From contig NZ_LR593887.1 of the NCBI RefSeq assembly GCF_901538355.1, positions 4,068,920 through 4,132,919 on the forward strand: 64,000 bases of DNA. Direction: 5' to 3'. The notes below the pieces were generated by a model. The model did not search any database. It saw only the letters and a program-made list of their open reading frames with translations, and had not been told where the DNA came from. Made by a program: the position numbers and the translations under genes. Below, one piece after another: positions 39,067 through 55,353 of this stretch (the first letter of the stretch is position 1; each line of letters begins with the position of its first letter). The DNA comes from Tuwongella immobilis (lineage in GTDB: Bacteria > Planctomycetota > Planctomycetia > Gemmatales > Gemmataceae).

Positions 39067-39651
39067 GCGACATTCCTCCATCGGAGCAAGTGCCAATCCA
39101 AGGTGTCGGGCGCGGGTCGATTGCGAATCGCAGTGTGGCCTGCGTGCAGTTGCGAGCCAGGGAGAGTGGTCTCGGCTTCAAATCGGTGATCGCAATCGGC
39201 TCAATTCGGAATCGGCGAGATCGACTCGCTCAATCCGCTTCACCATCGCACTCGAGGGGTTCAGTCGGAGGTTATGAGGATTGCCGGCTTGCGAAGGATC
39301 AGCAAACCGTCACAATCAAAGCATTCCGCTGTTGGATCATTGGCGATTCGGTTGTGATCCAAGAGTAATTTTGCCACTGCATTGTACGGGAGCCATCGTC
39401 GATCGCCAATCAAAATCCGAACTTTTTTGATTTTTTGGCCATGTTTCCGCCAAACTCGAGTGGTGATTCTGTTAGCGTACCCAATCCACTGGGATGGTTG
39501 TCAACCCTTTGAAGGATTTTTTCCCATTTTTTCCCCGTCGCAATCGCCCCTCTCATCGCATCGCCGGGCAGGGATCTCTTGCGAAGGATCGAGACTGCTG
39601 CCTATCATCTCGCCTGATGTCAATCCATCGCCCATTGTTGGAGCATTCCCC
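39067..39651. other. Divergent intergenic region between prkA and a GT-C-like gene
   Basis: About 585 bp without a supported gene; it must contain the promoter of the prkA cluster (minus) and of the 39652 gene (plus). T-rich tracts occur at 39422-39438. I could not identify convincing promoter boxes or repeats. Confidence 0.5.
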
Positions 39652-41364
39652 ATGGTCGGGACGGCTTTTTCTCCACGGACGTGGGGTATCGTTGCCGGAA
39701 TTGCCTGCTTGACCACGCTTCAGGTCTGCCTCGCCATCTGGACGCATTGTTGTTTTGAAGGTCGGTACGATGGGCCATTTCTGATTTCGTCCCACTTCGG
39801 CGTTCCGAGCGCGCTCGCCGACGCGGGAATCCGCCCCACCATCACCGATCAATACCCGCAAGTCGGTTGGGATGGTCAATTCTACTTTTTCATGGCCAAC
39901 GACCCGTTGGGCCTCGCCGACACGGCGGAACACCTCGACACCATCACCTATCGATACCAGCGAATTGGCATCCCGGCATTGGCGTGGGGCATCTCCCGAA
40001 TCACCGGCCATTCCGTCACTTCCGCGTTTTGGTATCTCACCGTTCAGAATATCCTCGTCGCGGCGGGGTTTGGCGTTCTCGTGGGCTACTTGTCGGCCTG
40101 CGGAATCTCGGCGGGCTGGGCGATGACTTGGCTGGGGGCCGGCGGAACCTGGTACACCCTCGCCTATGGTCTCCCCGACGCCGCTGCCGATGGCGTGTTC
40201 ATCATCGCATTTTGGGCAGTCATCACCGGGCGATTGTGGGGATATTTGCTCGCCTCGACACTGTTGGTGCTGATTCGCGAAGGCTATGTGCTGTTTCCGT
40301 TTGCGGTGTTTCTGGCCACGGTCTGGGGCAAACTCGATTGGTCGCGTTCCTGGTGGACTCGGTCGCTGCTCACCACCATTCCGGGAATCGCCGTCATCGC
40401 CTGGGCGGTGTATCTCTCGGTCCACTTCGGAATCGCCGTCACCTCGCCCGAACGCAACCCATCGATCACCACCGGACTACCCGGCGTGGAGTTCTGGAAA
40501 TCACTGCGACATGCCTGGGAGATCTGCGATCGTCAGGGTGTGGTCTACCGTCTGATTTCAATGGCGAGTCTGATCACGATTCTCGTCATTGCCGCGCGCC
40601 ATTGTCGGCGACACCTCGCCTTCGCGGTCGTGCTGCCCTATCTGCTGCTCATGCTTTGCCTGGGACCAGTCGTCTGGCAACATCATCAAGGCTACTTCAA
40701 AGCGATGGGCACGGTGCTGATTGTTGGAATCCTGCTGCTCACGATCACCCCCAATCGCATTCTGAAGGGCATCCTCGTGCTGAATCTGCTCATTGGCATC
40801 GATTGGAATCTCATTCAAGCGATTATCCCCGCGCCATTCTTCAGCCCCAACTCGGTGATTCTCACCGACATGCCGCCGTCGGAGCATCCATTCGGTAGTT
40901 CGCTGAACGACATCCGCGGCAAATTCACCCCATTTCCCGATGTCCCGAATCAATCGCCCCTTCGATCAATGACCGATGAAATCGAATGGATGGATGCCCG
41001 CGAGACAGTCGCCACCGAATATCAAGGCATCTGGCGATATTGGCATCGGGAATTGGTGCCGTTCCCGATTCGCATTCACAATCGCGGCACGGAAGCCTGG
41101 TCCGCCAATCCGCGACTCGGAACCGGGGCCGTGCATTTGGTCGCCGAGTTACTCCCCGCCGATCGCAGTCGAACGCTGATGCAACAACGCGTTCCGTTGC
41201 CGCGATCGATTGAGCCGGGTGAATCGCTCGATCTATTGGTCTGGATTCGACTTGGAAATCGCCAGATTGCACACCTGCACCTGGCGATGGAGCAAGTGGG
41301 CGTGCATCCGTTCAATCCGCATACCAGCACGCGCGGGCTGCATCGGGTGATTCGGATTCGCTAA
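39652..41364 (+). CDS. GT-C-like polytopic membrane protein, paralogue 1
   Basis: The start is the ATG at 39652, seven bases after TTGGAG, giving 570 residues. The first membrane segment is followed by a periplasmic loop with the motif GWDGQFYFFMANDPL (about 62-76), whose Asp is in the position of the catalytic acidic residue of GT-C glycosyltransferases. About ten hydrophobic segments follow, to residue about 395. The C-terminal 150 residues are a predicted periplasmic beta-sandwich (WSANPRLG, LPRSIEPGESLDLLVWI). Paralogues lie at 41467 and 50092. It probably transfers a lipid-linked sugar at the cell surface. Confidence 0.72.
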   Translation: MVGTAFSPRTWGIVAGIACLTTLQVCLAIWTHCCFEGRYDGPFLISSHFGVPSALADAGIRPTITDQYPQVGWDGQFYFFMANDPLGLADTAEHLDTITYRYQRIGIPALAWGISRITGHSVTSAFWYLTVQNILVAAGFGVLVGYLSACGISAGWAMTWLGAGGTWYTLAYGLPDAAADGVFIIAFWAVITGRLWGYLLASTLLVLIREGYVLFPFAVFLATVWGKLDWSRSWWTRSLLTTIPGIAVIAWAVYLSVHFGIAVTSPERNPSITTGLPGVEFWKSLRHAWEICDRQGVVYRLISMASLITILVIAARHCRRHLAFAVVLPYLLLMLCLGPVVWQHHQGYFKAMGTVLIVGILLLTITPNRILKGILVLNLLIGIDWNLIQAIIPAPFFSPNSVILTDMPPSEHPFGSSLNDIRGKFTPFPDVPNQSPLRSMTDEIEWMDARETVATEYQGIWRYWHRELVPFPIRIHNRGTEAWSANPRLGTGAVHLVAELLPADRSRTLMQQRVPLPRSIEPGESLDLLVWIRLGNRQIAHLHLAMEQVGVHPFNPHTSTRGLHRVIRIR

Positions 41365-41466: not shown

Positions 41467-43200
41467 ATGGATGCACAACCAAATGGGCCGAATCACTCCC
41501 CCGTGGGGGCACGCATCACCATGGAGGATTCTGCACCGAACCCCATTTCGGATGCACTCGTGGCGTTCTGGAAGCGATTCGGCCCGTATGGCGCGACGGC
41601 TCTCGTGACCGTTGGCTGCATGGGTCTGTTTTGGCTGCTGCAAGTCTTTATCACGCATTCGACATTCTCGGGGAATTTCGCCTGGACGCTGTTCCTTTCC
41701 CGCGATGTCGGCATTCCCGAAGTCGAAGTCAGCCAAGGGATTACGCCGGTCATTGCTCAGTCGGAATGGGATGCCGAGTATGGCTATCACCTCGCCAATG
41801 ATCCCTGGCTGACCAACCCCGACACGGTAGCCCATCTCGATTTGCCGATCCATCGCGGGCAAGCGATTTTCTTCCCGGCCCTGAGTTGGGGATTGGCCAA
41901 AATTGCTGGCTTGCCGATCGTTCCGCCTCGCCTCTTTTTGCTGCTGCATTGGGCGGTCATCGCCTTTGGAATCGGGGCCGTCGCGGGGTGGCTGGTGCGG
42001 CGGGGCATGAGCCTGCTTTGGGTTGTCCCCCTGGCGACCAGTTGGGTGATGCTGCGCGTGACCAGTCATGGCGTCTCGACCGCCGCGGGAGATGCGTTAA
42101 TCGCGCTGACACTCATCGCCGTCAGTGGCGGACATTGGTGCCGATTTCTGATCGTCGGCACAGCACTCACATTGGCACGACCCGATGCGATCTTCCTGAC
42201 CGCAGGTGTGACACTCGCCACCGCGCTCAAACAAACCGCGTGGCAAACCACCCTTCGAGGCCGACCGCTGGTGCTGCTCAGTGCGATTCCCACCGCCGTG
42301 CCGCTCCTCCTGGTGGGCGTGTTGCACGTTCGCTTCCCTGGCGAGGCAGTCACTCTCGGAATCGGCTTAACCCCTTGGCAAGATTGGTTTTCCGCGATTT
42401 CGACTGGCTTCGGCGATGGCCAGATTTGGGCCAGTCTATGGCGGATCGGTTTGACCGCAATTGCGCTGCACACGCTCGTGCGCTGTCTGCGAAATTGGGG
42501 CCAGTCGCCGATTGCGACGGTCGGCCTGCTGTGGCTTCTCGGCGTGATTTTACTGCCCGGTTGGACTTGGCAAACCACCATCAATGCCCCGATTGCGGTC
42601 GGCGGCGTGCTGTTGGTGTCGCTTTTCTTGACGGCGATTGACTCATCCGCACTCAATCGCGGATTGTTCCTCGCCCTCACGATCTGTCACGTCGGCCTGA
42701 TTCAGGGGAATCTGCTCCAAGTCGGGCATTGGTCCCCGCATCAGATGGTGATGCAAGACCAACTCAATCGACCAATTCTCGACCGGGAATTGAATTCCAA
42801 ACTGGTGGATGTCACTAGCTCGGCCACCTGGGTGAATCACACCGAAACACTCCCCCTGCCCACGAATCTCTGGAAGATGTTCCATCGGGAATCGATTGGT
42901 TTTCTGGTTCGTCTGGAGAATCGCACCCAGCAACCCTGGCACCCGCTGCCGCAATCCGGAGAGAATACCATTTCGCTGGCCGTCGAAATTCGCAACGAAG
43001 CGGGCGATCTCGTGCATCAACAGCGTTCGGTGCCCATCTGCCATTCCGTGGCCCCCGGTGAAGCCATTGAACAGGTGATTCCGATTGCACTCAAACGGGG
43101 CAAATATCAAGTGCGGGTTTCAGGATATCAGATCGGAATCGGCTGGTTCGATGACGCAAACTCCGCCAACGGAAGCCGTTACGTGTTGGAATTGAAGTGA
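41467..43200 (+). CDS. GT-C-like polytopic membrane protein, paralogue 2
   Basis: The 577-residue protein starts at the ATG at 41467 with AAGGA six bases upstream. It shares the layout of paralogues 1 and 3: a first membrane segment, HSTFSGNFAWTLFLS, a loop with EWDAEYGYHLANDPWL instead of WDGQFYY, many hydrophobic segments, then a C-terminal beta domain. In this copy the motif reads WDAEYGY, so Gly-Gln-Phe is lost although the Asp remains; substrate or activity may differ. The C-terminal domain includes FHRESIGFLVRLENRTQQPW and APGEAIEQVIPI. It lies 102 bp after paralogue 1 on the same strand and ends at a strong terminator. Confidence 0.72.
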   Translation: MDAQPNGPNHSPVGARITMEDSAPNPISDALVAFWKRFGPYGATALVTVGCMGLFWLLQVFITHSTFSGNFAWTLFLSRDVGIPEVEVSQGITPVIAQSEWDAEYGYHLANDPWLTNPDTVAHLDLPIHRGQAIFFPALSWGLAKIAGLPIVPPRLFLLLHWAVIAFGIGAVAGWLVRRGMSLLWVVPLATSWVMLRVTSHGVSTAAGDALIALTLIAVSGGHWCRFLIVGTALTLARPDAIFLTAGVTLATALKQTAWQTTLRGRPLVLLSAIPTAVPLLLVGVLHVRFPGEAVTLGIGLTPWQDWFSAISTGFGDGQIWASLWRIGLTAIALHTLVRCLRNWGQSPIATVGLLWLLGVILLPGWTWQTTINAPIAVGGVLLVSLFLTAIDSSALNRGLFLALTICHVGLIQGNLLQVGHWSPHQMVMQDQLNRPILDRELNSKLVDVTSSATWVNHTETLPLPTNLWKMFHRESIGFLVRLENRTQQPWHPLPQSGENTISLAVEIRNEAGDLVHQQRSVPICHSVAPGEAIEQVIPIALKRGKYQVRVSGYQIGIGWFDDANSANGSRYVLELK

Positions 43201-44718: not shown

Positions 44719-45321
44719 TTACTCCGCCTCACCGAGGGCGGAGCGCCAGAGGTCAGGGCGTTTGGTGCAGACAGCGTCGAAGGGATAGGGCTCGAGTTCG
44801 GCGGCGTAGGCGGGAATCGTATCCACCGGCCGGCCTTGGAGTTCCGGCGAGACGATGCACAATTTGAAGTGCGATTTCAGACGGGCATACGTTTCGGGCG
44901 TGAGCGGATTTCGGGTGAAGCAATCGACCCACACCCAATCGACTTGACCGGCCAACGCCAGCGCGGATTCGATCGGCTCATATTCGGAAAATCGCACCGC
45001 AATGCGATGCTCGCCGGACTTCACCAACACGCGAATCATCGGAAACGAACAATCCAGGAAAAAATAATCCCGCACGGGATACCGTTTCAGCAACTCCAGC
45101 ACGCGATGTTCGATGCGCTCACTTTTCACATTCAGAATCATCGTTCCATGACGATATTGCTGCAAATATGTCTCGAAATCTTCGCCCGTGGCCCCTTGAA
45201 AGGGGTCGTGCTGCAAGACGAGCCGGTCGCCGTGATCGCGGAGGTCCAACTCCACGCCATATTCCGGCGGTACGTTCGCCAGTTGGGCCACGGTATTCAC
45301 TCGATGGGCGATGTACAACAT
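44719..45321 (-). CDS. Glycerophosphodiester phosphodiesterase-like (GDPD fold) protein
   Basis: The 200-residue protein uses the ATG at 45321, nine bases after AAGGGG. The start IAHRVN, then VELDLR and QHDP, is the metal and catalytic signature of the GDPD/PI-PLC-type TIM barrel (HRxN, ExD, H-D). It is shorter than typical GDPDs (about 240) and has no signal peptide, so it acts in the cytoplasm. It is the last gene of the six-gene operon starting at 49868, 3 bp after the GtrA gene. Its substrate could be a phosphodiester intermediate of the proposed sugar pathway. Confidence 0.72.
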   Translation of the reverse strand: MLYIAHRVNTVAQLANVPPEYGVELDLRDHGDRLVLQHDPFQGATGEDFETYLQQYRHGTMILNVKSERIEHRVLELLKRYPVRDYFFLDCSFPMIRVLVKSGEHRIAVRFSEYEPIESALALAGQVDWVWVDCFTRNPLTPETYARLKSHFKLCIVSPELQGRPVDTIPAYAAELEPYPFDAVCTKRPDLWRSALGEAE

Positions 45322-45324
45322 GAA

Positions 45325-45771
45325 TCAATCCCCTTGCATCATGACCGGCAGTGGCTCATCGAGGGCTGATTCCGAAATCGGCTCCGATCCGCGATTGCGG
45401 AACGTCACCCACTTCAGGCCAACGAAGTTCATCACCGTGCTCACCCCCGTGGCTGTCAGGAATGCGAACAGTTTCCATTCCGCGCCGAGGAACGCCAGAA
45501 CCAGCGAATTGACCGCCACATTCACGCCCAGCGAGCAGGTATACAGCGTCAGATACAGCATCGGCTCGCGCATCGAGCGCGATGACGATTCAAACGTCCA
45601 AAATTTGTTGCCGATGAATCCGAAGATCATGCCGGTGAGATATGCCAACCCCTTGGCCAGACTGGTGCCCAGTCCCGCCCCGGTGAGCAGTGTGTACATT
45701 CCCAAGTCGATCAGCACCGCCGTGCAACCAATGACGACGAACCGAAGCAGTTGTTTGCGGGTCTCAGACAT
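45325..45771 (-). CDS. GtrA family membrane protein (polyprenyl-linked sugar flippase)
   Basis: The start is the ATG at 45771, giving 148 residues; it overlaps the stop of the upstream nucleotidyltransferase gene by 8 bp. Four membrane segments are visible (LLRFVVIGCTAVLIDLGMYTLL, LAYLTGMIFGFIGNKFWTF, and two more), with the GtrA-typical NKFWTF and KWVTFRN. GtrA proteins flip polyprenyl-phosphate-linked sugars across the membrane. A second GtrA domain occurs in the fusion at 48029-49144, so the locus carries two. The C-terminal tail is acidic. Confidence 0.9.
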   Translation of the reverse strand: MSETRKQLLRFVVIGCTAVLIDLGMYTLLTGAGLGTSLAKGLAYLTGMIFGFIGNKFWTFESSSRSMREPMLYLTLYTCSLGVNVAVNSLVLAFLGAEWKLFAFLTATGVSTVMNFVGLKWVTFRNRGSEPISESALDEPLPVMMQGD

Positions 45772-46546
45772 GACGGCCTGCTTTCGATTGCGACCACGCC
45801 CAATAGCGCGTCCAACGCTCATAATCCGCGACATCATCTGGCGTTCCCCAACCGATGTATTTTTCCACGGGGAAAATCGCCACGCGCTTCCCCTGCTCCA
45901 GCAACAGATTTGGTACCACGTCGAGATAAAACTCCCGGTTCACCCGTCGATCGGCTGCGATCAGCCGCTCAATGCCATCGAGCATCAGTTCCGCACTGCG
46001 AAACCAGAAGGTTCCGCTCACGACGGGATCCGAAATCGGCCGATCCGAAATCGCCCGCTTGCACGACACTTCCTGCACCGCACCCATCTCATCCGCACGC
46101 ACCCAACCGTACCATTCCGGCTTGATGACGACACGCGGCTCCCCCGAATACGTCCAGATGAGCGCATCCCAGATCGCATCCGTCGTCATCGCCGTAAATC
46201 GTGACTCATCATAGAGATGCGAATTATCACACGCCGACACCAACACCGATTCATCCCGTTTCAGGAATGGTTCGGCAAGCGCCACGCTACAGGCTTGCCC
46301 CTGCGTGAGGCCGGGAGCGACGACAATTTCTGCATGTGGAATCTGGGCCCGCAGCAGCGTATCGATTTGATTCTGTGCCACATGCTGCGGATGCACCACC
46401 AGCACCACGCGATTGACGACGGGCAACTCGCGAATGACGCGCAGAATCATCGGCACGCCATCAATCGGAATTAACGGCTTGGGTGTTGTGTATCCCGCAT
46501 CTTGAAAGCGTTGCCCCAGCCCGGCCATGGGAATGACCAGTTGCAT
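45764..46546 (-). CDS. Sugar nucleotidyltransferase (NTP_transferase family)
   Basis: The start is the ATG at 46546 with GGAG eight bases upstream, giving 260 residues. The N-terminal signature MAGLGQRFQDAGYTTPKPLIPIDG is the G-x-G-x-R-x(n)-K-P nucleotide-binding loop of sugar-1-phosphate nucleotidyltransferases. SACDNSHLYD is the metal-binding region, and VSGTFWFRS lies in the sugar-binding half. It activates a sugar or polyol phosphate with CTP, GTP or UTP; specificity cannot be read from the sequence. It lies 5 bp after the NTase-phosphatase fusion gene in the same operon. Confidence 0.87.
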   Translation of the reverse strand: MQLVIPMAGLGQRFQDAGYTTPKPLIPIDGVPMILRVIRELPVVNRVVLVVHPQHVAQNQIDTLLRAQIPHAEIVVAPGLTQGQACSVALAEPFLKRDESVLVSACDNSHLYDESRFTAMTTDAIWDALIWTYSGEPRVVIKPEWYGWVRADEMGAVQEVSCKRAISDRPISDPVVSGTFWFRSAELMLDGIERLIAADRRVNREFYLDVVPNLLLEQGKRVAIFPVEKYIGWGTPDDVADYERWTRYWAWSQSKAGRHV

Positions 46547-46551
46547 GGCCG

Positions 46552-48063
46552 TTACTCCGGTTGTTTGGCGAAGGATTGAAACAGTGCCCGCTCGGTCGAT
46601 TCGGGCAAATTCACGAATCGCCCAAATTCTCGCGTTTGAATCACCGTGATTGGCTCCAAATGCGGCACCTGCAAGCGAAACCACTGCGACATCGGCATTC
46701 CCAGCAGTTCGCCGACGAGACAGCGAATGACGCCGTTGTGGGTGCAGGTGATGGTGTTCCCCGACGCAGTCGCCCAGATCGTATCCGCAAATGCGCGAAC
46801 ACGTTGCGCAACCTGCTCGGTATTTTCTCCACCGGGAAAGGTCGGATCGTCGCCACGGGCCCAGGCGGTGAACATCTCGGGAAATTGTCGGCGTGCCTCG
46901 GAGATACTCAGCCCATCGAGTTGGCCGTAGTCGATCTCCAAGAGTCGCTCGTCGGTCTGAATCATCGGCAGCGGGAACTCGGCGGGAAATACCGCTGCAA
47001 GTGCCGCCAGCGTGGCGCGACATCGTCCCGCCGGGGATGACCACACCGCGCTCGGAGCATGGCGAGCGAGTTGCTCGGCGATGCTTCGCGCTTGCGAGTC
47101 TGCGATTGCGTGAATCGGGGCATCGCTTCGACCGAGAAAGCGCAACTCGCCGGCTGCGGTGCGATTGCCGGTGGTTTCCGCATGTCGGAATACGAGGTGG
47201 GTTGTCGCTTCCATCTCAAAGATGCGGCGAAATTGTTGCTCGAAATCGGCCAGAAACGCTTCTAACTCCGCATCCAATCCCGCGAGTGGCGGATCGAAGT
47301 CGAGCGCGAGTTTGCGTCGGGTCAACTCGGCGAGCAGTGGTTCGTATCGATCTCGTCCGACCGGAAAAATCGCAAAAAAAGTCTCGGGCAGATCTGCACC
47401 CGTCGCCACATCATTGCGACGCTGCACCAATTTGAGCAGATTCCGCATGAGAAACCGCATAACATGATAGGCAAACTCGTGGCGATCGCGGATGGTCATC
47501 GGCTTGGCCTGCTTCCGCTCCTGATAGCCCGACTCATCGCAAATCAGCTCGCGGTACGAAACCGCATTGGCGCGAAAATCGCGGAGATAATCCGACAAGC
47601 TGCGACGTGCCCCGAGAAAATGCCGCGGCTGAAGCCCGAAGACGGGGTAAACCTCGGCCAGCGAACGCTTTCGGATCGCCGGCGAACGCTGCCAATCGAG
47701 ACAGGTAAACGGGCTATCGATGACATGCGCGATGTGGCCAGCCACCGAATAGAGCATGACATGCAACACCGCCAATTCCGGCTCATTGAATTTGAGCGGG
47801 CCAAGCGTGGGATTCAATCGCAAGCGGAAACCAAACTCGGCGAGAATCGGCGTAAGCGTGGCGGTGAAGTCGGCCATCAGCGAGTCGAATCGATCACGAT
47901 TGATTCGATCCAGCACCAGCACCAAATCGATATCGCTGATGCCTTCGAGGGTGGGACGGTCGATAAAACTCCCGGTGAGCGTGGCGGATTGAACGGAGGC
48001 ATGCCGATCGACCACCGACCAGATGGCCTCACGAATGCGCGGCTTGAGCTCCCCGTTGTTCAT
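46552..48063 (-). CDS. Nucleotidyltransferase-fold protein fused to histidine phosphatase
   Basis: The start is the ATG at 48063, giving 503 residues. The N-terminal domain has the polymerase-beta-type nucleotidyltransferase signature GSFIDRP followed by DIDLVLV (Asp 44 and 46). A helical middle region follows. Residues about 288-500 are a phosphoglycerate-mutase-like histidine phosphatase with FRHAETTGN (His about 292), a Glu in LLEIDYGQLDGLS, and the second His in CTHNGVIR. The two activities in one chain suggest consecutive steps on a phosphorylated sugar: dephosphorylation and a nucleotidyl or aminoglycoside-like transfer. It overlaps the preceding GtrA-epimerase gene by 35 bp, in another frame. 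Confidence 0.85.
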   Translation of the reverse strand: MNNGELKPRIREAIWSVVDRHASVQSATLTGSFIDRPTLEGISDIDLVLVLDRINRDRFDSLMADFTATLTPILAEFGFRLRLNPTLGPLKFNEPELAVLHVMLYSVAGHIAHVIDSPFTCLDWQRSPAIRKRSLAEVYPVFGLQPRHFLGARRSLSDYLRDFRANAVSYRELICDESGYQERKQAKPMTIRDRHEFAYHVMRFLMRNLLKLVQRRNDVATGADLPETFFAIFPVGRDRYEPLLAELTRRKLALDFDPPLAGLDAELEAFLADFEQQFRRIFEMEATTHLVFRHAETTGNRTAAGELRFLGRSDAPIHAIADSQARSIAEQLARHAPSAVWSSPAGRCRATLAALAAVFPAEFPLPMIQTDERLLEIDYGQLDGLSISEARRQFPEMFTAWARGDDPTFPGGENTEQVAQRVRAFADTIWATASGNTITCTHNGVIRCLVGELLGMPMSQWFRLQVPHLEPITVIQTREFGRFVNLPESTERALFQSFAKQPE

Positions 48064-49144
48064 ACTTCGCCCCTGTCTTGAGCACATGAATCACCCGGAC
48101 TGGATTCATGGCCTGCAACACTGCACTGGCCGCCACGACATAGCGTGCTCGGATACGGCCAATCGTCTCCGTGTTGACGCTTCCATCAAACATCACTTCG
48201 TAGCCGTATCGACTCCGCATCGAATCGAACCATTCGGCCATCTGAAGCGCTCGGGGATTCATCGGTTGCCCCGAGACGCCCGGCTGACCGATGCCCAGAA
48301 TCATGACAAAATCGACATGCGGCAACAGCGGAAACATCGTCTCCACGTCGCAGCTTTCATGCCAAACGATGCCGACTTTCTTGCCCCGAATTCGACATTC
48401 GCAGATCCAATGCAACAAATTCGGCGTGTTCGCATGCAAGAGATACCAGTCAACCTGCTCCCAGGTCAACTTCAACCAGCGTTGCGGATCGGTGGACATG
48501 ACATGCAGCGCGACGGGCAGCCGATCCCCCCACAATCGCCGCACTTGTCGTAATTTGCGAAGATCGACGGGTGCCGCGTGGGGGTTCATCGTCTCATCGA
48601 CTAAATCCACATGAATATGATCGCAATGGTAGCCGACCCGACGAAAAATCCGGGCCACCTTTTCTGCGGGTGTGGCATACACGGCGATGCCAAACTCGCG
48701 GGCCTGATCGAAGGTAAATCGCCGGTGGAGCGCATAGGCGAACAGAAACAGCACCCCCGCCGACACGAGCCGCGCCCAGCCGTACCCCTGCCCGGAGAGA
48801 TCCCGAAACAGCGTCACCGCCGCCATATTCAGCGTGAAGGAAACGAGCGATACCAGCGCATACCGGGCAAACGTGCTCCAGAAATAATGCTTCGGCACCT
48901 GAAAATTCACGAGTGCATTCAACGAATACGAGACGCTCAGCCCGACCAGAAATGCCAGGAACGCGCGAGTCACCCACCCCCAATTGGGCGGCATCATCCC
49001 CACGAGCATGATTTCCAGAACGATTGCGAAAACACCAATTGCGGCGAATTTGGCCAAGTAGCGATGGCGATAGGCGTAGTACGACAACCGGGAATAGCGA
49101 AGACAATCGATCTGACGACGAAGCCGGTGAATGGGTTGGAACAT
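48029..49144 (-). CDS. GtrA-type membrane domain fused to ribulose-phosphate 3-epimerase-like domain
   Basis: The start is the ATG at 49144 with AAGGAA upstream, giving 371 residues. Residues about 28-145 are a GtrA-like four-helix membrane domain (AKFAAIGVFAIVLEIMLVG, LNALVNFQVPKHYF, RRFTFDQA). Residues about 155-350 form a TIM barrel of the ribulose-phosphate 3-epimerase family. All four metal ligands are in register: His178 and Asp180 (HIHVD), His214 (ALHVM) and Asp320 (FDGSV), with spacing as in known epimerases. GQPGVSGQ matches the PGFGGQ phosphate-binding turn. A membrane-tethered epimerase fused to a flippase domain is unusual. It probably supplies or channels a pentulose phosphate for surface-sugar export. 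Confidence 0.85.
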   Translation of the reverse strand: MFQPIHRLRRQIDCLRYSRLSYYAYRHRYLAKFAAIGVFAIVLEIMLVGMMPPNWGWVTRAFLAFLVGLSVSYSLNALVNFQVPKHYFWSTFARYALVSLVSFTLNMAAVTLFRDLSGQGYGWARLVSAGVLFLFAYALHRRFTFDQAREFGIAVYATPAEKVARIFRRVGYHCDHIHVDLVDETMNPHAAPVDLRKLRQVRRLWGDRLPVALHVMSTDPQRWLKLTWEQVDWYLLHANTPNLLHWICECRIRGKKVGIVWHESCDVETMFPLLPHVDFVMILGIGQPGVSGQPMNPRALQMAEWFDSMRSRYGYEVMFDGSVNTETIGRIRARYVVAASAVLQAMNPVRVIHVLKTGAKYEQRGAQAAHS

Positions 49145-49178
49145 CGGTCCAATTCCTTGCCGCAAGGCGATTGGGGGC

Positions 49179-49868
49179 TTACGCCGCGCGATTCTTCGGG
49201 GGAGCGTTGGTCGATTGGCCGTAATTGTGCTGATACCGGTCGTACCACTTCCGCGCTTCGGATTCGGGAATCGCCGCGGGTTGGCCGATCTGCAAGGCCA
49301 GCCAGACGGTTTTCGCCACATCCTCCACCATGGTCGCCGCTTTGAGCGCAGCCGGGGCGGAATTCCCCCAGGCGAACACGCCATGATTGGCCAGCAAAAT
49401 CGCTGGGGCTTGCGTGCGATGCGCGACAATCGCGCGACCAATCGCGTCGCCTTCGTTCGAGACATACGGCGCGCACGGCACCTCACCGCCAAACTCATCC
49501 GCAATGGCTGTCAGCACCAGCGGAATCGGGCGATGACATGCCGCAAATGCCGTCGCATAATTGCTGTGCGTGTGGATGATGAATTCCACATCCCGGAAGT
49601 GGCGATACAAATACAGATGGTGCGGCAAATCGACACTGGGCCGCAGATGGCCATCAATCACGCACCCCGAATCGACATCCACTTCCACCAGATCCGGCGG
49701 CGTAATCTGCGAATAATCCATCCCCGATGGTTTAATCACCAGCCGACCGCTGCGGCGATCGTACCCGCTGGCGTTGCCGGAGTGCATCACCACGAGCCCA
49801 TGTTGGGGCAGCGCGCGATTGAGCCAACAGACCTGTTCCCGCAGATCGGAAAGGCGTGTATCTCGCAT
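49179..49868 (-). CDS. Class II aldolase/adducin family protein (L-ribulose-5-phosphate 4-epimerase-like)
   Basis: The 229-residue protein shows the zinc ligands of the AraD/FucA family: His99 and His101 in IIHTHS, and His162 in LLANHGVFAWG. GNASGYD and KPSGMDY form the phosphate-binding loops near the N-terminus. Family members cleave fuculose-1-phosphate or epimerise ribulose-5-phosphate at C4; the sequence does not decide which. It is the first gene of the six-gene minus-strand operon, 34 bp before the GtrA-epimerase fusion. Two enzymes acting on pentulose phosphates in one operon suggest an unusual pentose or tetrose precursor. Confidence 0.87.
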   Translation of the reverse strand: MRDTRLSDLREQVCWLNRALPQHGLVVMHSGNASGYDRRSGRLVIKPSGMDYSQITPPDLVEVDVDSGCVIDGHLRPSVDLPHHLYLYRHFRDVEFIIHTHSNYATAFAACHRPIPLVLTAIADEFGGEVPCAPYVSNEGDAIGRAIVAHRTQAPAILLANHGVFAWGNSAPAALKAATMVEDVAKTVWLALQIGQPAAIPESEARKWYDRYQHNYGQSTNAPPKNRAA

Positions 49869-50091: not shown

Positions 50092-51816
50092 ATGTCATCT
50101 GCCGAAACGCCCCCGGTTGCATCCAGCGAGTCCGCCACCGCGATGCCGCAACAGAGTCTCGCCTCGCCGATTCCGCTCCGCGAATCGCTGCGGATCGGGG
50201 TTATCGTGGGATTGTTGAGTTTCTGCGTGCTTTGGACCTATCAATCCTTCGTGACGCATTATTCCTTTTCGGGAAACTTCGGATGGACGCTCCTTCCCGG
50301 GCTGAAATTCGGAATCCCCGCCCACGAGCAATCGCACGGCATGACGGTCGTGACCGATGAATTGGGGTGGGATGGCCAATTCTATTATCATCTCGCGAAC
50401 GATCCACTGCAACGCTCCCCCGAGACAACCGCCTGCATCGATCACCCGCATTATCGCGGACAACGGATTTTCTTCCCGGCGATGGCGTTTCTGCTGGCAA
50501 AACTCCTGGGCATGGCGATTGTTCCGCCGATTCTCTTCTTCGCGCTGCATTGGCTGACGATCTCCGCCGGGGTGGGTGCGCTGGCGGGGTGGCTGCATCA
50601 GCAGCGGTTGAGCCTTTGGTGGGCGCTTCCTTGGGCGAGTTGGTGGGGCGTGCTGCATCCGACATCACACGGGTTGCCCGATGGCGCGTGCGATGCACTG
50701 TTCATTCTGAGCATCCTCGCACTGCAATCGCAGCGACTGCTGGCATATTCGGTGGCGGCAACCGCACTCTGCCTGGCGCGCGAAGGCTACGCCGTCTACG
50801 CATTCGGTGTCTGGTTGCTCTCCACATCCACACTCGTCAAATGGTCGAATGATCGCCGCTATTGGGCATCATTCCTGCTCACCGCACTTCCCGGCATCGT
50901 CGTGGTCGCATGGGCTGCGTATTTGCAACTGCATCTGAATGTCCCCGAATCGACTCCACGCACGCCGAATCATCCCGTCAGCCTCCCGTGGGTGGCTTGG
51001 TATGGCGAAGTCATGAGCGGAATTCGCAACGGGTTATCGCAAGAGGTCACGTGGCAGATTTTCGCCGGGCTGTTGCTGATTCTGGTCACGACGCGCACCA
51101 TCGTCAACGCTCGTTCATCGCCGACAATTTCCGCCGGAATCCCCTATTTGCTCCTCACCATGTGCTTGGGGAAAATGGTCTGGGAAAACTATTCCGGCTA
51201 TCCCAAGGCGATGGGTTCGATCATTCTCATGGGCATCTTTCTGCTGCCGAAGGATCGAAGTTGGTGGCTGCGCTCGATGCTCGCTGGGTGCGTGCTGATC
51301 AGTGCGCAAATGCTGTTCCATGCACGGGTTGCGTATCCGATGCATTATTCGACGGCAGTGCTGGCCCGCAATTTGGGCCTGCAACAACCGCAACCCGATC
51401 CCACCCCGAATCGCAAATTCGACCGCTTTGACGGATCGATTATTTGGCAGAACGCCCAAGCGGAAATCGGGCTCCCGAAATCACTTTGGAATGCCTTCCA
51501 CCGCGAATCGATTCCGTTCCTGGTCACCGTGGAAAATCGCTCGCCGTTCCCCTGGTATCCGATGCCGCAGCACGGGCCAATGGCGATTCATTTGGCGGTG
51601 CAAATTTTGGATGCCGATACCCAAGAAGTCCTGACGCTGCAAACGGTGCCAATTCTCCGCGTGATTCCGCTAGGCGAATCGCTCACGCAAGTGATCCCGA
51701 TTCCTCTGCCTCGCGGCCGCTACATCGTTCGTGTCACCGGGTTACAACAAGGCAACGCGTGGTTCGACGAAATCAATCCGGCAATGGGACGCCGCTACCC
51801 GTTGACCATCCGCTGA
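50092..51816 (+). CDS. GT-C-like polytopic membrane protein, paralogue 3
   Basis: The 574-residue protein starts at the ATG at 50092, eight bases after GAGG. After a first membrane segment it has HYSFSGNFGWTLLPG and GWDGQFYYHLANDPL, the likely GT-C catalytic loop, in the same position as in paralogue 1. About ten hydrophobic segments follow, then the C-terminal domain with FHRESIPFLVTVENRSPFPW and PLGESLTQVIPIPL. It is closer to paralogue 2 in that C-terminal domain. It lies on the far side of the sugar operon, divergent from it, so the three paralogues flank the biosynthesis genes. The transferred sugar is unknown. Confidence 0.73.
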   Translation: MSSAETPPVASSESATAMPQQSLASPIPLRESLRIGVIVGLLSFCVLWTYQSFVTHYSFSGNFGWTLLPGLKFGIPAHEQSHGMTVVTDELGWDGQFYYHLANDPLQRSPETTACIDHPHYRGQRIFFPAMAFLLAKLLGMAIVPPILFFALHWLTISAGVGALAGWLHQQRLSLWWALPWASWWGVLHPTSHGLPDGACDALFILSILALQSQRLLAYSVAATALCLAREGYAVYAFGVWLLSTSTLVKWSNDRRYWASFLLTALPGIVVVAWAAYLQLHLNVPESTPRTPNHPVSLPWVAWYGEVMSGIRNGLSQEVTWQIFAGLLLILVTTRTIVNARSSPTISAGIPYLLLTMCLGKMVWENYSGYPKAMGSIILMGIFLLPKDRSWWLRSMLAGCVLISAQMLFHARVAYPMHYSTAVLARNLGLQQPQPDPTPNRKFDRFDGSIIWQNAQAEIGLPKSLWNAFHRESIPFLVTVENRSPFPWYPMPQHGPMAIHLAVQILDADTQEVLTLQTVPILRVIPLGESLTQVIPIPLPRGRYIVRVTGLQQGNAWFDEINPAMGRRYPLTIR

Positions 51817-52014
51817 GTTGGAATCGCGGATCGGCCAACTTCGGTTCCATGCCGCGAAATCGCTGGCTTGTCGGCGAATGGGTGTGGTAAACTGCCAGAG
51901 ATGACTCACCGAATTGGGCAGTGGGCGACTCGCTGCCATCCCAGCGGTGATCGAACGTGGCTGTGGCCCGTTGCGATCGTCGCCCGCCATGCTTGCCGCG
52001 AGGGGAATCCGATC

Positions 52015-55000
52015 ATGTCCCGCACCGTGCGAATCGTCGCCATGATTCTGGCGCTACCGCTGCTGATGCCAGCGACCATTCGGGCCGAGATCGATTATCT
52101 CAAGCAAATCAAACCGATTCTGCTCGAACGTTGCTATGCCTGTCATGGCGTGCTCAAGCAGGAAGGCAATTTGCGGCTGGATACCGCGATCTTTGGTCAG
52201 AAAGGTGGCGATTCCGGGCCGGCGTGGAAAGCAGGCAAGCCCGATGCGAGTTTGCTGCTGGAGCGCATTACCGAAGCCGAAGAAGCGGACCGCATGCCCC
52301 CCGAAGGCGAGCCGCTCAAACCGCAAGAGATTGCCCTGATTCGAGATTGGATTGCGCAGGGTGCCAAAGCCCCGGCGGATGAGAAGCCGGAAACCGACCC
52401 CAAACAACACTGGGCCTTCCAACCGCCGGTTCGCCCCGCGATTCCGACTGTGAACGATCCTCGCTGGCAGGGCAATCCGATTGATGCCTTGATTGCCGCT
52501 CAGCGGGAAGCTCGTGGGTTGGTGCCGCAACCGGCGTCGAATCGCCATTTGTGGATTCGTCGCGTCACCTTGGATCTGATTGGCCTGCCGCCTACAGATG
52601 CGGAAATCACCACATTCGTAAATGACTCATCCCCCAACGCTTATGAGAAAGTCGTCGATCGGCTGCTCGCATCGCCGCATTATGGCGAACGCTGGGGGCG
52701 TCATTGGATGGATATTTGGCGGTTCAGCGATTGGTGGGGCTTGGGTGCCGAGGTGCGCAATTCGCACAAACATATGCACCATTATCGCGATTGGATCATC
52801 GAATCCCTCAATGCCGATGTGGGTTATGACGAAATGCTCCGCCAGATGCTCGCCGCAGATGAGCTGCACCCGACCGACTCGCAGAAACTCCGCGCGACGG
52901 GATATCTCGTGCGGAATTACTTTCTGTTCAATCGGACGTCGTGGATGGATGAAACCGTGGAGCATACCTCCAAGGCGATGCTCGGACTAACGATGAACTG
53001 CTCGAAATGTCACGATCACAAGTACGATCCACTGTCGCAGGTCGAATATTATCGCATGCGGGCGATTTTCGAGCCGTATCAGGTGCGGATGGATCTGCTG
53101 CCCGGCGTGACCGATCCGGAACAGAATGCGCTGCCGCGTGCCTTTGACTGCAATTTGGACGAAAAAACCTACTTGCACATTCGTGGCGATGACCGCAATC
53201 CGGACAAATCGAAGCCGCTATCGCCGGGCATTCCCAGCATTCTTCAGAAGTCCGAACTGGCGTTCAGCCCCGTGAAACTGCCCGCCGCTGCGGTCAATCC
53301 GGGATTGCGGCCCGAGATTGTGCAAGCGTACCGCGACGCGGCGAATGCGAAAATCTCCCGTCAGCGCGAAGCCCAAGCGGTTGCCAAGAAAGCACTTGCG
53401 GAAATTCTGGCGAAAGCCCCCGCGAAACCAGCCGATGCACCCTTGTCCCCGCAATCGCCGCCGATGAAGTCGAACGACCCTGCGCGTGCGGATTCGCTCA
53501 AGCCGACGCTGGTGGAAGATTTTGCCTCTGCGAAACCCGAACGCTGGATGCCGAAATCTGGCAGTTGGAAGATCGCCAATGGCCGATTGACGCAAACGGA
53601 AGCATCCGCGATGGCGAGCATCATGCGGCTCAACTCGCCGGTGCCGCAGGATTTCGAGGCGACGCTCACATACGTGCCCACGGGTGGGGAAACCTACAAA
53701 TCGGTGGGTTTGGCATTTGATGCGGGCGAATCGGATCGGCATACGTTGGTGTATGTCAGTGGCTACGCAGCCGACCCCAAGGTGCAGGTGGCCCCCAATC
53801 CGGGTGGTGGGTATCGCTACCCCGCCGAGGGGAAATCGCCCGTGAAAGTGGAGTTGAATCAGCCACACACGCTGAAAGTGCAGGTTCGCAATTCGCTCGT
53901 CAATGTCTGGTTCGATGGCGAATTCAAGCTGGCGTATCAATTGCCCGATGCACGCTCATTCGGGTCGATCGATTTGGTGACGTATGATGCGACTGCCGAA
54001 TTCCGTCGATTGGAATTGAAGCCGCTGACGCCGTCCATCGCCTTGCGGCCAGCGGGCGTGGAACCGAACGCGGCGTCTGCCCCGATCGCCACCCGCGAAT
54101 CGGCCGAGCTCGCGTTGAAAGTCGCGGATGCCGAACTCGCAGCAGCCGAAGCGGAACTCGCCGCCATTGAAGCCGCTCACGCCGCCGATTTGGCCCAAGC
54201 CAACGAGCCGGGCACCGCCGCAACCAAGGCCAAGATCATCGCCGCCGCTCGCGCCCAAGCCCAACAGGAACAGGCACTTGCGGAGGTCGAAACGGCCAAA
54301 GCCGCACATGCAGTCGCCATCAGCGCCGGCAATGCCAAGGTTGACGCGCAGAAGAAGCTGCAAGCGGCGATGGGCAAACGCGATGCGGCCACGAAACGGC
54401 TGCAATCGCCGGGAGAATCGTATCGGAGCATCGTCGGTTCTCGCAAATCGAAAGAATCGAATGTCGAATCGGACGCTTCGCGGAATCGTCCCTTCCCGGC
54501 CACCAGTTCCGGGCGTCGGAGTGCATTTGCCACGTGGCTCACCAGCCGACAAAATCCGTTGGCCGCGCGGGTGGCGGTCAATCACTTGTGGTCGCGGCAT
54601 TTCGGCAAGCCGTTGGTGGCAACCGTGTTCGATTTCGGACGCCGAGGCGCGGCCCCGACCCACCCGGAATTGCTCGATTGGCTCGCCGTCGAATTCATGG
54701 AATCCGGCTGGAGCATGAAGCATTTGCACAAGCTGATGGTGCTGTCGCAGACCTATCGGCTATCGTCGAGCAATGCCAAGAGTGCGGCGGTGAATCTGCA
54801 GCAGGATGCCGAGAACCGCCACTATTGGCGATCGAATCCGATTCGGATGGAATCGCAAGTGGTGCGGGATAGTCTGCTGCTGCTGGCCGGGGAACTCGAT
54901 CGCACGATGGGCGGCCCGTCGATTCCGGTGAGCAATACGCAATCGAAGCGGCGCAGTTTGTACTTTTTCCATTCGCATAATGAGCATCAGAAGTTTCTGT

Positions 55001-55353
55001 CGCTCTTTGACGATGCCAGCGTGTTGGATTGCTACCGCCGCACGGAAAGCATTGTGCCGCAACAGGCGTTGGCGCTGGCGAATAGCGAAATCGCCCTGGA
55101 AACCGCAGAGAAAATCGCCGCCAAGATTGCCAAGGATCACCCGCAAGCGGATGGCGATGCCTGGCTGACGATCGCATTCCGGACCGTGCTGGGCAGTCCC
55201 CCCAACGATGCGGAACGGGCCTATGTGCGGGCGACGCTGCCGAAATTGGAAGCCGCCGCACGGGAGCAGAACCGCGCGAATCCGCAGTCGGCCGCGCGGG
55301 TATCGATCATTCATGCGTTGCTGAACCACAACGATTTCGTCACGATTCGCTAA
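52015..55353 (+). CDS. PSCyt1-DUF1549-DUF1553 planctomycete surface protein
   Basis: The start is the ATG at 52015 with GAGGGG upstream, giving 1112 residues. A signal peptide (residues 1-24) is followed by a PSCyt1 cytochrome-like domain with CYACH (Cys40, Cys43, His44). DUF1549 follows ([31 protein letters not shown]), then an inserted LamG/concanavalin-like domain (about 500-680), an Ala/Glu-rich coiled coil (about 690-810), and DUF1553 at the C-terminus ([35 protein letters not shown]). It is almost always paired with a DUF1501 protein, as here. Proposed roles include binding or breaking down complex polysaccharides; biochemical proof is lacking. Confidence 0.92.

Follow-up and report, generated by a model that had tools for sequence, protein, structure and literature searches.

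In a 64,000-nucleotide stretch of the chromosome of the planctomycete Tuwongella immobilis (the window; NZ_LR593887.1, positions 4,068,920 to 4,132,919 of the forward strand, on a chromosome of 6.69 Mb), we find a cluster of about 11 genes whose products probably make an unusual activated sugar out of a common sugar phosphate with five carbons and link it to the cell surface. With moderate confidence, we read the locus as the planctomycete form of a widespread module that would convert a pentulose 5-phosphate into an activated sugar and deliver it to a surface glycan on a polyprenyl-phosphate carrier, much as Gtr systems do. This reading is based upon the gene content of the locus, the linkage and conservation of its genes, the folds and catalytic residues of their products, and the exchange of the early enzymes between two forms of the module. 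From these we infer the substrates, the order of the steps and the product.

A conserved set of genes in planctomycetes

Six open reading frames lie between positions 44719 and 49868 of the window, all on the minus strand, and the gaps between them, read from 49868 to 44719, are 34, −35, 5, −8 and 3 bases. The initial annotation had described six genes that overlap or nearly touch, and this is what we observe. In order, they encode a class II aldolase/epimerase of the AraD type (P0001, 49179..49868; Pfam Aldolase_II, 3.5e-47), a GtrA domain fused to a divergent ribulose-phosphate 3-epimerase (RPE) domain (P0002, 48029..49144, with a likely ATG at 49144; GtrA 4.7e-14, Ribul_P_3_epim 2.6e-16), an AadA-like nucleotidyltransferase (residues 1-285, from its predicted structure) fused to a histidine phosphatase (P0003, 46552..48063; His_Phos_1 6.3e-38), a sugar-phosphate nucleotidyltransferase (P0004, 45764..46546; NTP_transferase 5e-9, and its position in a tree), a stand-alone GtrA membrane protein (P0005, 45325..45771, with its ATG at 45771 and an 8-base overlap with P0004; GtrA_DPMS_TM 1.3e-19), and a TIM-barrel protein resembling glycerophosphodiester phosphodiesterase (GDPD) and phosphatidylinositol-specific phospholipase C (PI-PLC) (P0006, 44719..45321, from its predicted structure). 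The domain identities given earlier are thus borne out by Pfam, and by predicted structure for the nucleotidyltransferase half of P0003 and for the GDPD-like protein.

We term type B those loci that carry the nucleotidyltransferase-phosphatase fusion. Ten were found including the window, nine in planctomycetes and one in Sumerlaeia; beyond the window genome the set was found in Limnoglobus roseus, a member of the same family (Gemmataceae), seven other planctomycetes and one Sumerlaeia metagenome-assembled genome. In all 10 loci the RPE-like, AraD-like, 2H phosphoesterase, nucleotidyltransferase-phosphatase, NTP transferase, GDPD-like and GT2 glycosyltransferase genes are found together, so that the survey of gene neighborhoods proposed in the initial annotation shows genes that travel together. 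Of 392 planctomycete genomes sampled, six carry the nucleotidyltransferase domain, and the close GDPD-like gene is present in those six and no others. Both the GtrA-RPE fusion and the nucleotidyltransferase-phosphatase fusion recur in the relatives, and therefore neither is an artefact of sequencing or annotation; the two fusions noted earlier are real.

The operon is larger than six genes. A 2H phosphoesterase related to 2'-5' RNA ligases (P0007, 44087..44716, plus strand; Pfam 2_5_RNA_ligase2), a GT2 glycosyltransferase (P0008, 43306..44088, minus strand, starting at ATG 44088 or GTG 44061; Pfam Glycos_transf_2) and three polytopic membrane proteins also belong to it. We reject the six-gene boundary, since the 2H and GT2 genes lie within or beside the cluster at every type B locus and the membrane proteins flank the operon, and we replace it with at least eight genes plus the flanking membrane proteins.

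A second form of the module shares the late enzymes

A scan for the GDPD-like family using one genome per species gave 188 related places in many phyla, and the best 80 of the 188 were read. A second form of the module, which we term type A, is present in Proteobacteria, Firmicutes, Bacteroidota and others. It comprises a tandem nucleotidyltransferase (domains NTPa and NTPb), usually GtrA, a GT2, the GDPD-like protein, a HAD phosphatase, a membrane domain fused to a kinase of the phosphoribulokinase (PRK) family, and a two-domain class II aldolase (ALD). Fifty type A loci had flanks of 9 kb or more on either side, and in 46 of these five or all six of NTPa, NTPb, GT2, PRK, HAD and ALD are present. 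None of the 50 holds RPE, AadA-like or histidine phosphatase genes, nor the 2H gene that is present in 10/10 type B loci.

The late enzymes of the two forms are related. The GDPD-like protein P0006 is the most conserved shared gene product, with 55% identity to its homologue in a type A module on an E. coli plasmid. The GT2 P0008 shares 50% identity with its counterpart in that module, and P0004 shares 39% with the second nucleotidyltransferase there, NTPb. In a tree of 160 nucleotidyltransferase domains, P0004 and its type B relatives are the sister group of NTPb (support 0.98), with NTPa lying on the other side (support 0.997); this rules out P0004 as the counterpart of NTPa, which comes first in the tandem enzyme. 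From these identities and the tree, the core common to both forms is, as judged by sequence comparison, the GDPD-like protein, GT2 and NTPb together with GtrA, around which the early enzymes are exchanged. The system is widespread and the window holds one of its two forms, and the late steps are therefore not unique to T. immobilis.

This conservation bears on a simple explanation of the locus, that it serves pentulose salvage or catabolism with some membrane arrangement, GtrA and GT2 being incidental neighbors. AraD and RPE are indeed usually catabolic enzymes. However, across phyla, loci of both forms repeatedly include GT2, GtrA and the nucleotidyltransferases, and the genome encodes a separate housekeeping RPE elsewhere while P0001 is its only copy of its kind, with no second AraD. 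The type A modules moreover sit among O-antigen and exopolysaccharide genes, and clustering of the neighbors around type A loci gave general polysaccharide genes only, with no further conserved sugar enzyme. We conclude that a catabolic role is highly improbable.

The early enzymes point to a pentulose 5-phosphate

P0001 passes the curated NCBIfam model for L-ribulose-5-phosphate 4-epimerase (NF005123; 255.2 bits against a cut-off of 251), and falls short of the stricter araD model TIGR00760 (150.9 against 389.1 bits). Its D80 and D124, the counterparts of AraD D76 and D120, are invariant across the 10 type B loci, as is the zinc-binding triad H99, H101 and H162. The aligned structures 1jdi and 1k0w differ solely by Asp to Asn, at the AraD Asp120 position. 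By its conserved residues and family score, P0001 would be a 4-epimerase of the AraD type.

Could the class II enzymes be true aldolases, so that the product is a sugar of three or four carbons, or one whose chain is altered in another way? Class II aldolases do cleave ketose 1-phosphates, and the type A enzyme carries an aldolase-type Glu (PSIET). Yet the counterpart of Asp120, which is absent from fuculose aldolase 6btd in the alignment, is present in P0001 and kept in 10/10 type B loci. In addition two divergent loci (L039 and L137) use an AraD-like version, a more distant enzyme with the long insertion loop of AraD, probably recruited independently for the same activity. We give an aldolase only a slim chance.

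The catalytic residues of the RPE domain of P0002 (H26, D28, H62 and D168 in domain numbering) are invariant. The locus had been thought to contain two pentulose-phosphate enzymes; both are present, of the epimerase type and with intact catalytic residues. The substrate loop of the RPE domain is altered, with VDETM where MDGxF is expected, its second-best NCBIfam match is D-allulose 6-phosphate 3-epimerase, with nearly as good a score, and its best PDB sequence match is 3ct7. These features would suit a hexulose derivative made, for example, from allulose or fructose. Against this, type B has an AraD-type partner and type A a PRK-type one, each of which indicates a pentulose 5-phosphate, and we consider a hexulose product very unlikely.

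The type A kinase matches phosphoribulokinases with E ~1e-39 and uridine kinases with 1e-16. It keeps the His and Arg of PRK (DxxHxxxR), which the alignment shows to be absent from uridine kinases; the kinase tree places it outside the PRK clade, and we therefore call it PRK-like only. The window genome has no member of the PRK/uridine kinase family. Taken together, the AraD residues, the RPE residues and the PRK-like kinase of type A point to a pentulose 5-phosphate in both forms. The initial annotation had suggested an activated pentulose or shorter sugar; the pentulose is favored, and the shorter sugar is less likely because P0001 has the residues of an AraD epimerase rather than the aldolase pattern, and because type A uses a PRK-like enzyme.

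In most type A loci the kinase, fused to its polytopic membrane domain, is annotated as a uridine kinase (for example L032, 9456-11438). The membrane-fused form is also found in E. coli and gut Firmicutes.

The nucleotidyltransferase-phosphatase fusion and the 2H phosphoesterase

The nucleotidyltransferase half of P0003 has no Pfam match. Its AlphaFold2 model (pLDDT 85) most closely resembles AadA and ANT structures, with Z = 11.9 over 222 residues and ~14% identity for AadA, Z ~11 for ANT(3'')(9) and AAD(9), and Z of 8.4 or less for other nucleotidyltransferases. The GSF/SDID signature (GS...DxD) is invariant in the 10 loci, including the DxD pair. AadA-fold enzymes transfer AMP to sugar hydroxyls. 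The catalytic motifs of the histidine phosphatase domain are conserved, as are both HxT/S motifs of the 2H phosphoesterase P0007. Within the window cluster P0007 is on the opposite strand; in seven of the nine relatives the 2H gene shares the orientation of the operon, and at two loci, L038 and L135, it forms a single fusion with the nucleotidyltransferase-phosphatase.

The GDPD-like enzyme and the membrane route

P0006 matches no Pfam family, GDPD included. Its AlphaFold2 model (pLDDT 96.6) has the GDPD fold, with 3ks6 as the best PDB match (E 5e-6), and the catalytic His pair and ExD metal motif are kept, with H6, E24, D26 and H38 invariant in 43 sequences. This protein is common to all forms and lies beside nucleotidyltransferases in nearly all the loci read, which suggests that it probably acts on a sugar linked to a nucleotide.

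A GtrA domain occurs twice in the operon, in P0002 and in P0005 (Pfam GtrA_DPMS_TM). It may anchor the cytosolic enzymes or the GT2, instead of flipping a lipid-linked sugar. Of the activation and flipping steps put forward initially, a sugar nucleotidyltransferase and a membrane route through GtrA and GT2 are present; flipping itself is less certain since GtrA may act as an anchor.

The three polytopic membrane proteins are related to each other and have ~4 to 9 hydrophobic segments. A genome-wide search for the family gave these three copies and no others, all flanking the operon on the plus strand. The first (41467..43200, ~8 predicted transmembrane segments) resembles GT-C enzymes by layout only. 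The second (50092..51816) has a homologue adjoining a type A module of Azospirillum (L034), one of some type A modules that such proteins flank. The third (39382..41364) probably starts downstream of the listed TTG.

A possible pathway

These components can be arranged into a sequence of five steps. First, the RPE-like and AraD-like epimerases would set the stereochemistry, interconverting D-ribulose 5-phosphate, D-xylulose 5-phosphate and L-ribulose 5-phosphate. Second, in type B the AadA-like domain would add a nucleotide to a free hydroxyl, and its histidine phosphatase partner in the fusion would remove the 5-phosphate; in type A an equivalent job could be done by the PRK-like kinase, the extra nucleotidyltransferase and the HAD phosphatase. 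Pentulose 5-phosphates are unable to form a furanose. A phosphatase step is therefore expected before a glycosyl donor is made, and both forms have one; once the 5-phosphate is lost the pentulose could close to the furanose. Third, the GDPD-like enzyme, with the 2H phosphoesterase in type B, might rearrange or hydrolyze the phosphodiester to give an anomeric phosphate. This is the least certain step. Fourth, the shared nucleotidyltransferase would make the nucleoside diphosphate (NDP) sugar. Finally, the GT2 would move the sugar to the lipid carrier, GtrA would anchor or flip it, and the polytopic membrane protein would transfer the sugar on the outside.

A more specific version of this chemistry would be a new mode of ketose activation at the anomeric carbon. 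The AadA-like enzyme would place the nucleotide on C1 of the pentulose 5-phosphate, the phosphatase would free C5 and allow the furanose to close, the GDPD/PI-PLC-like enzyme would form a 1,2-cyclic phosphate, the 2H enzyme would open this, giving an anomeric 2-phosphate from which the shared nucleotidyltransferase would generate the NDP-pentulofuranose. Ring opening of this kind, on ADP-ribose 1'',2''-cyclic phosphate, is known of 2H cyclic phosphodiesterases. We regard this detailed scheme as speculative and unlikely to be correct as it stands. If true, a fold known for modifying antibiotics would act as a sugar activator, and there would be an explanation for the donor from which bacterial glycans receive their ketofuranose residues.

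Alternatively, the nucleotide could be linked through a terminal hydroxyl, giving a pentulose or pentitol phosphate comparable to CDP-ribitol that becomes a phosphodiester substituent of a surface polymer, and not a lipid-linked glycosyl donor. The MobA/IspD-like nucleotidyltransferases of the module resemble the activators of primary-alcohol phosphates, the PRK-like kinase and HAD phosphatase of type A would yield a 1-phosphate, and a GDPD-like enzyme suits phosphodiester turnover. But GT2 and GtrA are conserved, with few genes in either form better conserved than the GT2, and no pentitol-forming reductase is conserved in the neighborhoods. We therefore think this outcome unlikely.

Several observations weigh against conversion of a pentulose 5-phosphate into a lipid-linked glycosyl donor. 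The order of the steps was set by chemical logic only. The RPE domain scores well under the cut-off of its family (TIGR01163; 53.6 against 212.6 bits), and is therefore classed as RPE-like and not as a housekeeping RPE, and the type A aldolase is related only distantly to AraD, over 127 aligned residues. By motif reading there is no obvious counterpart in P0003 of the third carboxylate of AadA (Glu87); the strand expected to bear it has an invariant His101 and no invariant acidic residue, and thus the reaction could differ from that of AadA. The P0006 family has, again by motif reading, an invariant Asn64 where canonical GDPDs have a metal-binding Glu (ExK). This substitution and the lack of a Pfam match lead us to reject P0006 as an ordinary GDPD and to term it GDPD-like only. 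Since type A lacks the 2H enzyme, the third step would have to proceed without it there. P0008 has no predicted transmembrane segments, so the C-terminal segments usual in GtrB are absent. Lastly, the polytopic membrane proteins match no Pfam family, glycosyltransferase families included, and flank only four of the 10 type B loci, counting the window.

Other occurrences of the module

A complete type A module is carried by an E. coli IncR plasmid (NZ_CP145712.1, 6022-14984; L032/L037), with IS26 on both sides. A distant DNA search, which diverged copies could escape, found the module in two of 5,426 complete E. coli genomes, both times on plasmids of ~33 kb. With just these two plasmid-borne copies, of strains whose serotypes are not known, a link to the xylulose O-antigens of E. 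coli is unsupported, with the same proviso on diverged copies.

In many gut Lachnospiraceae (L059, L075, L077 and others; 19 loci) the type A module has a shared membrane protein of ~540 amino acids nearby. A distant third form, type C (L035, L036, L138-L141), has the GDPD-like protein, a HAD phosphatase and two or three nucleotidyltransferase domains. Type C loci are often near WavE or ABC transporter genes, and several of their nucleotidyltransferases are annotated as glycosyltransferase family 2. In Cytophagaceae (L040 and L048, 10001-11306) a ribosomal protein operon is followed directly by a pair of GDPD-like and HAD genes, with no other module genes close by, and four Bacteroidota GDPD-like loci have no cluster nearby.

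Next to the cluster in the window is a large planctomycete protein (51868-55353) of unrelated content, in which the motif CYACH resembles a haem-binding site. Phage records gave no match, and a phage origin is unsupported.

Relation to known systems

The genes gtrA, gtrB and gtrS form a set for O-antigen modification (PMC12826051). The module resembles such Gtr systems (GtrA, GtrB and the serotype-specific GtrC/GtrS) in combining GtrA with a GT2 in the cytosol and a membrane protein of polytopic layout, and in its probable lipid-linked donor. It differs in bringing its own sugar-making pathway, in the lack of transmembrane segments in its GT2, in the additional fusion of GtrA to an epimerase, and in having membrane proteins outside the Pfam glycosyltransferase families. 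The kinase, HAD phosphatase and nucleotidyltransferase of type A, acting on a sugar phosphate, follow the logic of heptose activation (HldE/GmhB). In contrast to that pathway, however, the kinase is PRK-like, there are two nucleotidyltransferases and a GDPD-like enzyme, and in type B the AadA-like domain replaces the kinase.

Similarly, the epimerases have the folds and catalytic residues of AraD/UlaF (which interconvert L-arabinose and D-xylulose) and RPE, but they sit in a glycan operon without arabinose genes, and the RPE domain is divergent and fused to GtrA. The P0003 domain has the two-domain fold of AadA and ANT(3'')(9), but it has no obvious third carboxylate, is fused to a phosphatase and is found in a biosynthetic operon.

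The initial annotation knew of no described pathway with this exact set of genes. None was found in the open-access literature that we searched, although such absence is weak evidence. Thus the Gtr-like layout for export is known, while the pathway of sugar activation is apparently undescribed. Xylulose is a known but rare component of glycans, a ketopentofuranose in bacterial surface glycans (PMC8707391). The xylulose glycans of E. coli O95, Y. enterocolitica O:10, C. jejuni RM1221 and Devosia submarina provide a precedent for ketopentoses of the kind that the module may make. For the ketopentoses found in some bacterial surface glycans, we found no donor pathway described in the same literature, and the module offers a concrete set of genes with which to address this question. 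It would correct the automatic gene names 'uridine kinase' and 'phosphatidylinositol-specific phospholipase C'. More generally, it would be one pathway with two interchangeable front ends, with a PRK-like enzyme employed outside carbon fixation and an AadA-like fold employed outside drug resistance.

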